A stretch of DNA of 45,613 nt from IMG/VR virus record IMGVR_UViG_3300042914_001405, positions 1 through 45,613 of that record, one strand, 5' to 3'. The notes under the pieces are model-generated. The model did no database searches and was not told the DNA's origin. It saw nothing but the letters and a program-made list of their open reading frames with translations. The stretch comes from a virus. Of the stretch, positions 1,374-4,954 are shown piece after piece; the stretch's first letter is position 1; each line of letters opens with the position of its first letter. Both the position numbers and the translations under genes were made by a program.

Positions 1374-2032
1374 AATGCATTCCACCCATAAGGGGCTATA
1401 TCTTTTATAATAGATCCAATTGCTTCCGCATACTCTCTGGTTTCTAATTGAGTATGGCTATCGGTTCTCAATTTAAACATATGATTCCAACCAAGCAAGC
1501 TACCAGTTGTTACAGTTGTAGTATACATTGATTGAGGTAAAACCATGCGAGCCATCTCTGGTGCTACACCTTGAAATAGTAGACAGTGATACTTTGCAAC
1601 AGAATCTTGACAGGATTTTTCATACAAGTCTAGAATATCCTGATTATATCCTTCAGAAAATACTTCTCCTGATCCTTGCTTAATACCTTTCTCAGGACGC
1701 TTTCTAAATTGGTACGGAGTATAAAAATCTATTTCGCCATCTAAGTATCTTCTGGATACTTCGCTCCAACTAAATCCTACCTGATGCTTACCTAACTGAC
1801 GTAAAACAAAAATAGGCGCATAAATTCTAAAAGTGATATGAGGATGACGAAAAGGTAAAACGTGTCTATGTTTTGCAAGATAGTTAATAAGTTTCTCGTC
1901 AGATGCTTTATCGAACTCTTCATGTTCTTTATCAAAAGAAGCTCTAGCTGCGTTAATTATTAATAGATCTGCATCAGGGGTATGGCTAATAAGCTCTACA
2001 AAACCTTTATTTAAAACAAATACTTTATTCAT
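1361..2032 (-). CDS. thyX: FAD-dependent thymidylate synthase ThyX
   Basis: ThyX methylates dUMP to dTMP using methylene-tetrahydrofolate, with FAD and NADPH, and so supplies thymidine for phage DNA synthesis. The ThyX signature is at residues 82-96, in the variant form KHQ-x2-FSWSEVSRRY rather than the cellular RHR-x2-S-x-NE-x-S-x-RY. The E91, S93 and R95 positions are kept. A second conserved block (EMARMVLPQSMYTT, residues 159-172) follows. The length of 223 residues is normal. The start ATG overlaps the polymerase stop in an ATGA arrangement, and the end overlaps the gp47-like gene. It therefore belongs to the replication operon. Confidence 0.93.
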   Translation of the reverse strand: MNKVFVLNKGFVELISHTPDADLLIINAARASFDKEHEEFDKASDEKLINYLAKHRHVLPFRHPHITFRIYAPIFVLRQLGKHQVGFSWSEVSRRYLDGEIDFYTPYQFRKRPEKGIKQGSGEVFSEGYNQDILDLYEKSCQDSVAKYHCLLFQGVAPEMARMVLPQSMYTTTVTTGSLLGWNHMFKLRTDSHTQLETREYAEAIGSIIKDIAPYGWNALCEH

Positions 2033-3114
2033 AGCTTAGGTACATCATTCTCAAAGTGAACAGGCTCACCTTCTCCGAAGGACTTGCCAACCTCTGCTTC
2101 AATAACTAGAGGCACGTTAAAGTTGATCTTAAAGATATCCCTGATAGTAGGATAATTAACCATCTCATCATAGAGAATGGTAAGGGTTTCCTTCACTTCA
2201 TCCTCTGGACAAATCACTTCAATTGAGTCGTGTACCGTAGCAACAGGTCGCGCCTTCAATCCTGCTTGCTTGAATCTTCTAGATGCTCCAAGAAGCGAGC
2301 ATAGAAGAATATCAGAAGCAGCACTTTGAATTGTAAAGTTCAATCCCTGTCTCAATGCTCGGTTAACAACAGTTCTATCATCACTATGAACGTCAGGAAG
2401 GTTACGCTTTCTGCCAAAAATAGTATATGCAAATCCGTTCTTTTTAATGAACTTGTTAACAAACTCCATATACTCGAAGATCGCTGGATAAACATTTTTG
2501 TAGTCCTCGATTATCTTTTCAGCACGCGACATGGAAATACCCATAGTCTCACTAAGGTTAAATGCACCACCACCATATACGATCAAGAAGGATACAGTCT
2601 TTGCAATCTGACGTTCTTCCTTGGTAATCTCCTTCTTATTGAATAGGAGCTTGGCAGTATAAGTATGCAGGTCAGCACCTTCGTTGAATGCCTTTTGCAT
2701 ATTAAACTCCTTAGATATATGAGCAAGAACTCTAAGTTCCATAGCACCATAGTCAGCAGCTATGAAAGACCATCCCTTAGGTGCGGTAAACAAACTACGA
2801 ATGTTATTCTCAGTCTCTCTTGGAAGGGTGTGAAAGGAAACACCCATAGCCTCGTCTGCATTATATGCAGCACAAGACAGGCGACCCGTAGCCGTACCAT
2901 CAAATCTAAAATCTACATACACCTTATCATGCTGATTATACTTAATCGCATTCTTAGTACCTTCAATATAAGTCTTAGATAGCTTCTCAGACTTACGAAG
3001 ATCCAATAATCCCTTGAGGAACTTCTTAGCTTCTAGCAAATCCTCTGTGCTCTTCTCAGCAATAACAGACTTGCTAATACGCTTACCTTCATCTCTATAT
3101 TGCCACTTACCCAC
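2029..3114 (-). CDS. DNA polymerase family A, thumb end plus palm and fingers (third piece of a split polymerase)
   Basis: This frame holds the polymerase catalytic core. Counting from the GTG at 3114 (361 residues), TATGRLS is near residue 74, motif A (DYGAMELR) is at 121-128, motif B (R-x3-K-x3-F-x3-YG) spans 168-181, and motif C is VHDS near 294-297. Motif C has Ser where Pol I enzymes usually have the catalytic-site Glu (HDE). The frame is open back to a TTG at 3135. The GTG is preferred because GAGGAG lies ten bases before it and because it overlaps the stop of the preceding frame. An in-frame TAG just before the TTG excludes a longer start. The polymerase works with the exonuclease pieces encoded immediately upstream. 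Confidence 0.88.
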   Translation of the reverse strand: MGKWQYRDEGKRISKSVIAEKSTEDLLEAKKFLKGLLDLRKSEKLSKTYIEGTKNAIKYNQHDKVYVDFRFDGTATGRLSCAAYNADEAMGVSFHTLPRETENNIRSLFTAPKGWSFIAADYGAMELRVLAHISKEFNMQKAFNEGADLHTYTAKLLFNKKEITKEERQIAKTVSFLIVYGGGAFNLSETMGISMSRAEKIIEDYKNVYPAIFEYMEFVNKFIKKNGFAYTIFGRKRNLPDVHSDDRTVVNRALRQGLNFTIQSAASDILLCSLLGASRRFKQAGLKARPVATVHDSIEVICPEDEVKETLTILYDEMVNYPTIRDIFKINFNVPLVIEAEVGKSFGEGEPVHFENDVPKL

Positions 3115-3586
3115 GCTTACTAAGCTCCTCGTCAATTTGTTCTAGCAGGAGTTTTAATGTAGCTGCTGCCACAGAAGGCTTCTCTTTACCAGTTCTATCG
3201 GGGGGGTACAATCCCATGCCTTCTTCCCGTGTGTATAGAATCTCAATCAGGTCATTATTAGAGGATAGGTTGTCGGTCTTCTTAACACCTTTGCAATAAT
3301 ATAAAGCATCTTCCTGCTCGACATTAATATCTCGCAGTTGCTTACCTACAGATTGTAGCTTGTTAGGATCGACATCCAACCCATTGTATTCCATGTCTGC
3401 GAAGGTTTCAATAGAAGGCATAACTACCTTTTCGATTAACTTCATGGAAGTATGCTCCTCCATCTTCTCCTTAATTAGGAGAAATAGCTTTCTAGTAAAG
3501 TAAGCATCCATAGCGTTGCCTTCGCAACACTTGGAAAGCTCCATGTTCTTCCAATCAACCTTTGAAGGATTATCTACTGTAAGCAT
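3107..3586 (-). CDS. DNA polymerase family A, exonuclease C-terminal part and start of thumb (middle piece)
   Basis: This is 159 residues of a family A polymerase with neither its beginning nor its end. Residues 20-35 hold the region matching motif Exo III (EGNAMDAYFTRKLF, probable catalytic Asp at 27). The Tyr expected four positions earlier is Gly. Residues 50-80 resemble the exonuclease-to-polymerase linker ('MEYNGLDVDPNKL'), and residues around 130-145 (TGKEKPSVAAATL) match the start of the thumb. The ATG at 3586 overlaps the previous stop as TAATG, and the end overlaps the polymerase core frame by eight bases. This looks like a genuine coupled split, but an indel in the assembly or programmed frameshifting cannot be excluded by eye. 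A run of seven C at 3200-3206 lies inside this frame, but the frame reads correctly on both sides of it. Confidence 0.82.
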   Translation of the reverse strand: MLTVDNPSKVDWKNMELSKCCEGNAMDAYFTRKLFLLIKEKMEEHTSMKLIEKVVMPSIETFADMEYNGLDVDPNKLQSVGKQLRDINVEQEDALYYCKGVKKTDNLSSNNDLIEILYTREEGMGLYPPDRTGKEKPSVAAATLKLLLEQIDEELSKRG

Positions 3587-4596
3587 TAGAGGTTCTCCAA
3601 TTCATCTGCAAAATAATACTTGGCTAGGTCCATTAAGCTCTTAGGCATATTCTCGTCTAAGAAGTGGTGCATAACTTTAGTGTCCCAGATGTTAACTGGG
3701 TGAATACCTTTGTTCTTCAAGAACTTGATATCGAACTTAGCATTATGAAGAACCTTAATGCTATTAGGATTCTCCAAGATCCTCTTTAGATTAGAGATCA
3801 ATTGAGGATCATTCTTGAAAGGGCTGTCCTTATGGTTAACAGGGATAACCCAAGTCTGATCCTCTGCCGAAATAGCTATGGTCATGATCTCGTCGGTCAA
3901 GAAATTAAGACCTGTAGTTTCAATATCTATCCCTAGGATATCATCTGAGGATTCTAGCTTCTCAGCTAGTGCGTCAACATACTCCATATGCATGATGGTC
4001 GTGTATGCAAACTTCTCAGATGATCTCTTACCAAGAATATATTTCTCGTATGCATTCTGGATATCGGTCTTGAATAGTGCAAGATGCCGAGGCTCCTTGA
4101 TGCACGAATAAGGGTGATAGATAGGAACTACCACGCAGGTAAATCCAGATTCAGTTGAGAACGTAAAAGCCTTACCTCGCTTATTAGTAATACCACTCTT
4201 CTTGAGAAGCATCTTAAGAGCAAGGTTGCCACACGCAAAGATTAGCTTGGGCTTAATCTTATCTATGGTAGCATCCAAGTGAACACGACATAAGTTCATG
4301 TTCTTGGGAGACATATCTGCCTCTCCAACCGAGGGACACTTCACCGATGCGGCTGTAACGAACTTATCCTTATAACATTCGTTAATTAAATCCATCTCAG
4401 GCTTAGAGAAAGCCCAAGGCGCACCATGCCTATACTTGATCGAATCGGATAGGAACAGCGTATGAGCCTCCTCCAAATCCTTGTAATCCATTACGGAATG
4501 ACAAGGTTTATCCTTATCAAGGATGCTGCAACCCTCGCATAAAGGATTAACTGTCCCGATTCTATGCCCTGCGTACAATTTATTAAGATCAAACAT
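3586..4596 (-). CDS. Uracil-DNA-glycosylase-like domain fused to 3'-5' exonuclease N-terminal part (first piece of split polymerase)
   Basis: Residues 1-185 form a family 4-type uracil-DNA-glycosylase-like domain, and residues 200-336 begin the DEDD proofreading exonuclease. Cysteines at 20, 23, 87 and 103 follow the C-x2-C ... C-x15-C spacing of the 4Fe-4S cluster in family 4 enzymes. The C-terminal HP motif (YHPYS) is present at 160-164. The usual GEAPG motif 1 is not recognisable. Exo I (DIE, 224-226) and Exo II (N-x3-D, 285-289) are intact, and Exo III is in the next frame. A similar N-terminal UDG-like extension is known on SPO1-type phage polymerases. The start codon abuts the palindromic element at 4597-4607, and no ribosome binding site is seen. 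Confidence 0.88.
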   Translation of the reverse strand: MFDLNKLYAGHRIGTVNPLCEGCSILDKDKPCHSVMDYKDLEEAHTLFLSDSIKYRHGAPWAFSKPEMDLINECYKDKFVTAASVKCPSVGEADMSPKNMNLCRVHLDATIDKIKPKLIFACGNLALKMLLKKSGITNKRGKAFTFSTESGFTCVVVPIYHPYSCIKEPRHLALFKTDIQNAYEKYILGKRSSEKFAYTTIMHMEYVDALAEKLESSDDILGIDIETTGLNFLTDEIMTIAISAEDQTWVIPVNHKDSPFKNDPQLISNLKRILENPNSIKVLHNAKFDIKFLKNKGIHPVNIWDTKVMHHFLDENMPKSLMDLAKYYFADELENL

Positions 4597-4609: not shown

Positions 4610-4954
4610 ATGAAAAAGAAACATTACATAGACAACAAACGGTTCGAGGAGGTCATCCTATTATACAAGAAGGATCCCAAAAAGTACGAGGAAGAATTAA
4701 TTTCTTTATTTGACATACTAATAACTAACATCGTCGAGAGCTTCAAATTTAATGTAGATCCCGACGATGCCAAGCAAGAATGTTTTACTTTAGTGCTTAA
4801 AACTTTGAGAAATTTTAAGCCGAAGAAGGGTACAGCATTCAATTATTTTACGACCATAATCGTAAATAACTTAAAGCTACTGTACACTAGAGAAAAGAAA
4901 TACGCTAAGAAGATTGAAAATTATATTGAAAACAACAAGGACTTAGTTAGTTAG
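4610..4954 (+). CDS. Small sigma factor-like protein, probably gp55-type late sigma
   Basis: This 114-residue protein resembles sigma-70 region 2. Residues 46-97 (VDPDDAKQECFTLVLKTL ... FNYFTTIIVNNLKLLY) show the DD-x-x-QE-x-F and 'FxxYxxxIIxNxL' pattern of the core-binding and -10-reading helices. No region 4 is visible. T4 gp55 is also a reduced sigma that reads only a -10-type box, though it is longer (185 residues). The expected role is to direct host RNA polymerase to phage late promoters. It is one of only two plus-strand genes here, is convergent with the next gene (8-base overlap at the ends), and begins two bases after the palindromic element, which suggests it could feel its own regulation. 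It could also be another regulatory sigma. Confidence 0.68.
   Translation: MKKKHYIDNKRFEEVILLYKKDPKKYEEELISLFDILITNIVESFKFNVDPDDAKQECFTLVLKTLRNFKPKKGTAFNYFTTIIVNNLKLLYTREKKYAKKIENYIENNKDLVS

Follow-up and report, generated by a model that had tools for sequence, protein, structure and literature searches.

The family A DNA polymerase of the virus described here is very probably a genes-in-pieces replicative enzyme made of three polypeptides. The stretch of DNA that was analysed, called the window below, comprises positions 1 to 45,613 of the IMG/VR record IMGVR_UViG_3300042914_001405, and all positions are given in window coordinates unless a locus name precedes them. The enzyme, which includes a uracil-DNA glycosylase (UDG)-like domain, a 3'-5' exonuclease and a polymerase, is spread over three open reading frames (ORFs) on the minus strand, named f1, f2 and f3. 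Together, these frames cover single-chain homologues in order; each has its own start codon, and inserted genes occur between them in relatives. The split is fixed in a whole clade of related viruses and is not confined to one genome. Since the identical two cuts are present in every relative found, the polymerase probably reassembles from f1, f2 and f3. The pieces and their junctions are as follows:

3586 to 4596, minus strand: f1, 336 amino acids, UDG-like domain and 3'-5' exonuclease part (PF03167 and PF01612, invariant residues, fold match).
3107 to 3586, minus strand: f2, 159 amino acids, C-terminal exonuclease part and start of the thumb (phrog_17, conserved alignment, single-chain polymerase matches at the expected place).
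2029 to 3114, minus strand: f3, 361 amino acids from the GTG at 3114, rest of the thumb, palm and fingers (PF00476, catalytic motifs A, B and C).
3584 to 3588, minus strand: junction 1, TAATG, in which the f1 stop and the f2 start share one base; insertion site of cargo genes in relatives.
3107 to 3114, minus strand: junction 2, where the end of f2 and the GTG start of f3 share eight bases.
3594 to 3599, minus strand: TTGGAG resembling a Shine-Dalgarno (SD) sequence, upstream of the f2 ATG and within f1 codons; its GAG codon is strongly preferred.
3125 to 3130, minus strand: SD-like GAGGAG, 10 nucleotides upstream of the f3 GTG and within f2 codons; GAG preference with p of about 1e-4.

The ORFs and coordinates agree with an earlier sequence-only reading of the window, which had described three minus-strand frames joined by TAATG and by an eight-base overlap; the GAGGAG that it had placed ahead of the f3 GTG is also there. 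The GTG at 3114 is taken as the start of f3 because the same GTG is found in relatives, while a longer TTG start at 3135 is not common to them. The domain assignment of that reading stands for ExoI and ExoII in f1, ExoIII and the thumb start in f2, and the core in f3, but it had overlooked the UDG-like domain of f1. Its statement that the breaks fall within folded domains holds as well: f1 and f2 each contain part of the exonuclease site, and f2 and f3 each contain part of the thumb.

The domain content of the pieces was established by profile searches. The first piece matches PF03167 (UDG) and PF01612 (exonuclease) up to about motif II and corresponds to columns 543-785 of the polymerase family phrog_17. 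The middle piece fits columns 794-932 of the same family (motif III and the thumb base), between f1 and f3, and the third piece occupies columns 908-1239. A PF00476 match of 270 bits (cut-off 34.3) was obtained for f3, whose motifs A, B and C are conserved in 20 aligned rows. The Pfam search with f2 gave no match, so annotating each ORF by itself would overlook or misname the polymerase. The four acidic metal ligands of a DnaQ-like 3'-5' exonuclease are present across f1 and f2 and are invariant: D224 and E226 of ExoI and D289 of ExoII lie in f1, and D27 of ExoIII lies in f2. In the N-terminal 190 residues of f1, the presumed Fe-S cysteines C20, C23, C87 and C103 are invariant in 40 rows. The GEAPG-type catalytic motif of family 4 UDGs is replaced in the clade by an LSDS-type sequence (judged by eye, against L085); for this reason, the domain is classed as UDG-like and not as an active UDG, and its role is probably structural. 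The predicted structure of f1 has a predicted local distance difference test score (pLDDT) of 82, and its fold matches are a family 4 UDG, the Klenow exonuclease and the phiLo family A polymerase. The model of f2 alone is of low confidence (pLDDT 67, predicted template modelling score 0.29), and a fold search with it gave no match; this poor lone fold gives a faint hint that f2 may be a part requiring partners.

Relatives were collected by an IMG/VR scan with f3 (80 loci, 67-99% identity) that was later extended, and the resulting set holds 84 non-redundant loci. Both f1 and f2 are present in 73 of the 84 loci, and f2 and f3 in 81. Fusion of any two pieces into one frame was found in none of the 84. 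The gene order f1-f2-f3 is constant, and the end of f1 and the start of f2 fall at identical residues throughout the relatives, down to about 50% piece identity. The sequence-only reading had argued for genuine, translationally coupled pieces and had proposed a comparison with related phages. This comparison bears the proposal out, with both breaks recurring clade-wide, the same arrangement in the 84 loci, and start and stop codons kept. For pairs with an estimable dS, the pairwise ratio of non-synonymous to synonymous substitution rates (dN/dS) is 0.01-0.14 in all three pieces, many divergent pairs being saturated; f1, f2 and f3 are under strong purifying selection. Pseudogene decay was considered and ruled out by this conservation and by the dN/dS values. 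The earlier reading had also left room for sequencing or assembly indels that split one true gene. A one-base change at each junction would restore the frames. Against an indel artefact, however, both breaks recur, with their start and stop codons, in contigs that are independent and divergent (84 in all), f2 is read in a conserved frame of its own, and about half of the loci carry intervening genes. The conservation of breaks and junction codons among relatives excludes assembly error, and we give it practically no weight.

The junctions vary in a manner that also bears on translation. At junction 1, a one-base overlap is found in 36 of the 73 loci (TAATG, with one TGATG), and an insert of 151-2403 nucleotides is present in the other 37. 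Among 81 non-redundant loci, junction 2 consists of an eight-base overlap with GTG in 53, while overlaps of one, four and 23 bases occur in 11, 8 and 5 loci, respectively; single loci have a five-base overlap, a 2-nucleotide gap, a 582-nucleotide inserted gene (L069) and a damaged f2 (L034). Programmed ribosomal frameshifting, which the sequence-only reading had kept as an alternative, would yield a full-length polymerase, alone or beside the pieces; in the window, the frames overlap at both junctions and a stop codon stands directly at the frame change. Nevertheless, the frame change from f2 to f3 is not fixed: it is +1 in the classes with eight-, 23- and five-base overlaps and -1 in those with one- and four-base overlaps. 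In L069, a frameshift across junction 2 would face the 582-nucleotide gene, and in many relatives f1 and f2 are separated by genes on the opposite strand. No slippery heptamer was found in the window, in agreement with the earlier remark that no slippery site is obvious. The varying frame relation of f2 and f3 and the genes between f1 and f2 exclude programmed frameshifting as a general explanation, and the chance that it accounts for the arrangement is very small.

The inserts at the seam between f1 and f2 are mostly unrelated genes on the opposite strand. Insert-bearing loci include L003, L006, L009, L011, L014, L019, L026, L034, L050, L055 and L069. The antisense inserts include a lipoprotein-like family (10 members) and one with a YERIGESIWNTYRSM-like start (8 members), besides others. 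Sense-strand inserts occur in some loci and include a glycosyltransferase, a 2-oxoglutarate-Fe(II) oxygenase and small ORFs; stop-start coupling is often kept at both ends of these. One ORF of 91 amino acids (MEMTPKKYLTV...) occupies junction 1 in three divergent loci (L043, L112 and L140). A tree built from the concatenated pieces shows at least 11 changes of insert state (15 by parsimony), and near neighbours such as L042/L043 and L023/L046 are unlike in this respect. Unrelated genes have landed at this seam again and again, and a break in an essential gene can thus turn into a site that repeatedly receives cargo. Where opposite-strand genes lie between f1 and f2, f2 must start independently, which supports separate polypeptides.

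Rejoining of the pieces, by trans-splicing of a group I intron or by split inteins, was also considered. Phage polymerase genes are frequent hosts of introns and inteins, and a split intein has been reported in the family B polymerase of phage MIJ3 (PMC6892783), which counts for this explanation. On the other side, Rfam gave no intron match in the window or in eight insert-bearing relatives, the piece ends at break 1 carry no extra sequence, and ten inserted ORFs match no nuclease or intein family. In addition, every piece begins at a start codon of its own, which in most cases is accompanied by an SD-like sequence. Splicing at either level is an extremely improbable explanation. A gene split by a homing endonuclease was tried as a candidate and rejected, as no endonuclease or intron was detected at the break among the ten inserted ORFs or by Rfam.

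The reading with three separately made polypeptides is accompanied by signs of translational coupling. In loci with adjacent genes, the SD codon at junction 1 is GAG in 33 cases and GAA in one, compared with 406 GAG and 310 GAA elsewhere in f1 (p 3e-7), and in the eight-base class of junction 2, GAG is also preferred in the SD-like sequence (p 1e-4); both counts treat related loci as independent. The GAG to GAA ratio of the same f1 codon is 20 to 6, a weaker bias, in loci with antisense inserts and 7 to 0 in those with sense inserts. Of the 36 adjacent loci, 35 end f1 with TAA, while TAG is used in 15 of 29 loci with antisense inserts; this bias exists partly by definition, because a one-base overlap with ATG excludes TAG. 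With adjacent genes, f2 and f3 would be translated by coupling of termination to reinitiation, through the TAATG and the SD-like sequence inside the upstream gene, and such coupling would hold the amounts of the pieces matched. With an intervening gene present, f2 would start on its own.

The positions of the breaks were mapped by alignment with 77 single-chain polymerases (MW202455, MW202777, OP947159 and 74 IMG/VR ORFs). The loop that connects the helix after ExoII to the ExoIII helix is the site of break 1; no residue is lost there, and the single-chain relatives align end to end across it. At break 2, two thumb segments are separated by about 40 extra residues, an expansion that is absent from single-chain relatives and contains the break, so that both new ends are longer than the corresponding parts of those enzymes. 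Break 2 was also considered as the counterpart of the thioredoxin-binding insertion in T7 polymerase, an idea that was given up because that insertion is located elsewhere in the thumb. Single-chain relatives with this domain order are common. In a separate scan of 80 loci, 69 have a polymerase ORF longer than 650 amino acids with the exonuclease in the same frame, and in three more the ORF has about 625 amino acids; the remaining loci run off contig ends, and none of the 80 is split. A single ancestral family A gene with UDG-like, exonuclease and polymerase domains would have been broken at two points before the clade diversified. As no endonuclease was found at any break, the split likely originated from simple indels rescued by restart of translation, and an endonuclease lost long ago is a conceivable source.

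Under the three-polypeptide reading, the products of f1, f2 and f3 would be made separately and would associate without covalent joining. The assembled exonuclease site would draw its metal ligands from f1 (D224, E226 and D289) and f2 (D27), and the thumb would be contributed by f2 and f3. It could also be supposed that the pieces are separate enzymes, with f3 alone as the polymerase and f1 acting as a protein of UDG-like or exonuclease function, and that they do not reassemble. The UDG-like domain is distinct within f1, and the loss of the ExoIII tyrosine described below looks as if the constraint on the exonuclease had been altered. Yet the metal ligands are invariant although they are shared out between f1 and f2, and f2 is conserved despite having no stand-alone fold or function. 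The thumb base is absent from f3, and the f1-f2-f3 order is always maintained. Separate enzymes are, on balance, improbable.

Several points weigh against a working enzyme in three parts as it is proposed here, and the independence assumed in the codon counts is one of them. The tyrosine of the DEDDy-type motif YxxxD is missing: f2 residue 23 (approximately 3518-3520, minus strand) is Gly, with the metal-ligand Asp kept. This tyrosine is present in 76 of the 77 single-chain relatives, while Gly is found in every aligned split member, and the change may have weakened proofreading. Unsplit intermediates were not found among the loci scored with the f3 profile, where the split clade reaches at least 620 bits and the single-chain polymerases at most 170. 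In addition, we infer the assembly, stoichiometry and activity of the three proteins from their sequences. Many family A polymerases without an active exonuclease remain members of the family; the tyrosine loss lowers the claim of normal proofreading and leaves family A membership unaffected. It would be a long shot to regard the splitting itself as functional, with an f2 and f3 core and an f1 proofreading part that assemble reversibly, so that the virus switches between fast, error-prone synthesis and proofreading and the divided exonuclease site, lacking its tyrosine, works only when assembled.

Genes-in-pieces polymerases are already known in two-part form, and the three-part family A version appears to be new. 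The OM43 phages MEP401 and MEP402 (Zobellviridae) have a two-part PolA that is conserved in most of their marine group (PMC10580990). They resemble the clade studied here in having a family A enzyme in separate ORFs that flank a small unrelated ORF; however, there are two pieces, the break lies just before palm motif A (f3 columns of about 87-119), and the relation is distant. Among T4-related phages, Aeromonas phages 25 and 44RR have a split family B polymerase gp43 (43A/43B), and Aeh1 has NrdA in pieces (PMC2988022); 43A and 43B of phage 25 were reported to co-purify with polymerase activity (PMC2988022). These are likewise replication enzymes in pieces, but the split gp43 belongs to family B, is in two pieces and is associated with a homing endonuclease or intercistronic sequence, whereas the present enzyme belongs to family A, is in three pieces and has no endonuclease in any insert. 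In cyanophage Mic1, a polymerase gamma is encoded by two ORFs with an intervening sequence of 298 bp that was called an intron by the authors (PMC7156551). It is similar as a family A-type polymerase in two ORFs and differs by its break in the polymerase domain and by the 298-bp separator. The single-chain PolA enzymes used for break mapping, together with phiLo (9qhs), have the same domain order and catalytic motifs and align end to end with f1, f2 and f3 at about 30% identity; they differ in being one polypeptide of about 620-900 amino acids, in keeping the ExoIII tyrosine and in lacking the thumb expansion. Rhodothermus phage RM378 had been named as a two-part family A precedent, which is mistaken: its polymerase (PF00136, 522 amino acids) and its separate exonuclease (PF03104) are of family B, and the product of the gene resembling 'DNA polymerase I' is a 5'-3' nuclease. 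RM378 shares the separation of exonuclease and polymerase genes and differs in family and in the distance between the loci. The literature searched, which does not extend to most subscription papers, yielded no three-part PolA, and the earlier judgement that a three-part split inside domains is unusual is upheld.

The eight longer contigs of the clade (71-131 kb) each contain exactly one PF00476 match and one PF01612 match. A family B polymerase (PF00136) was found in none of the eight, and a Pol III alpha subunit (PF07733) in none of the four that were checked. The three-part enzyme is the only replicative polymerase detected, in contigs that may be incomplete. Genes-in-pieces are in this way widened from two-part enzymes to a clade-wide, three-part replicative polymerase with breaks in catalytic or DNA-gripping domains. 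The extent to which a polymerase can be fragmented without losing its function becomes testable, and natural split points of a family A enzyme are offered to biotechnology.

The window carries T4-type head and tail genes (Gp23, S77 protease, sheath and tube). One related contig of 130,604 bases (L134, QCKN01000003.1; the same contig as L057 and L109) is part of the Prochlorococcus single-cell genome AG-409-P03, which hints at a cyanobacterial host. No psbA was found in eight related contigs, including that of L134. The clade consists of uncultivated T4-like viruses that are apparently marine, judging from AG-409-P03 and from IMG sample numbers.

Some minor observations concern individual loci and neighbouring genes. 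At L034:5590-6008, f2 is interrupted, with about 20 residues absent and a change of frame, which could reflect a polymerase in four parts, a lesion or a fault of assembly. In the window, a small ORF at 4610-4954 on the plus strand, divergent from f1, weakly resembles sigma-70 region 2 (PF04542, 21.4 bits, below the cut-off of 24). Several inserted proteins (L009:4512-5504, L011:5031-5495, L034:4657-5202, L050:3240-3935 and L056:4848-5504) have common short N-termini such as NDYEYELIGESIWDTYKNMAYLLSE or NFEDKLIYILLEAA. These resemble the capsid-targeting sequences of T4 with (L/I)xE cleavage sites, and by this analogy the proteins may be packaged internal head proteins. A TATWATATATAG-type motif stands directly before the f2 ATG in L006, L014, L027, L029, L050, L055 and L138; it does not occur in the window, and in the loci that were checked no other gene carries it. 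In these loci, there is no SD sequence on the f2 strand at the motif, which faces an antisense gene and is possibly a promoter for it.

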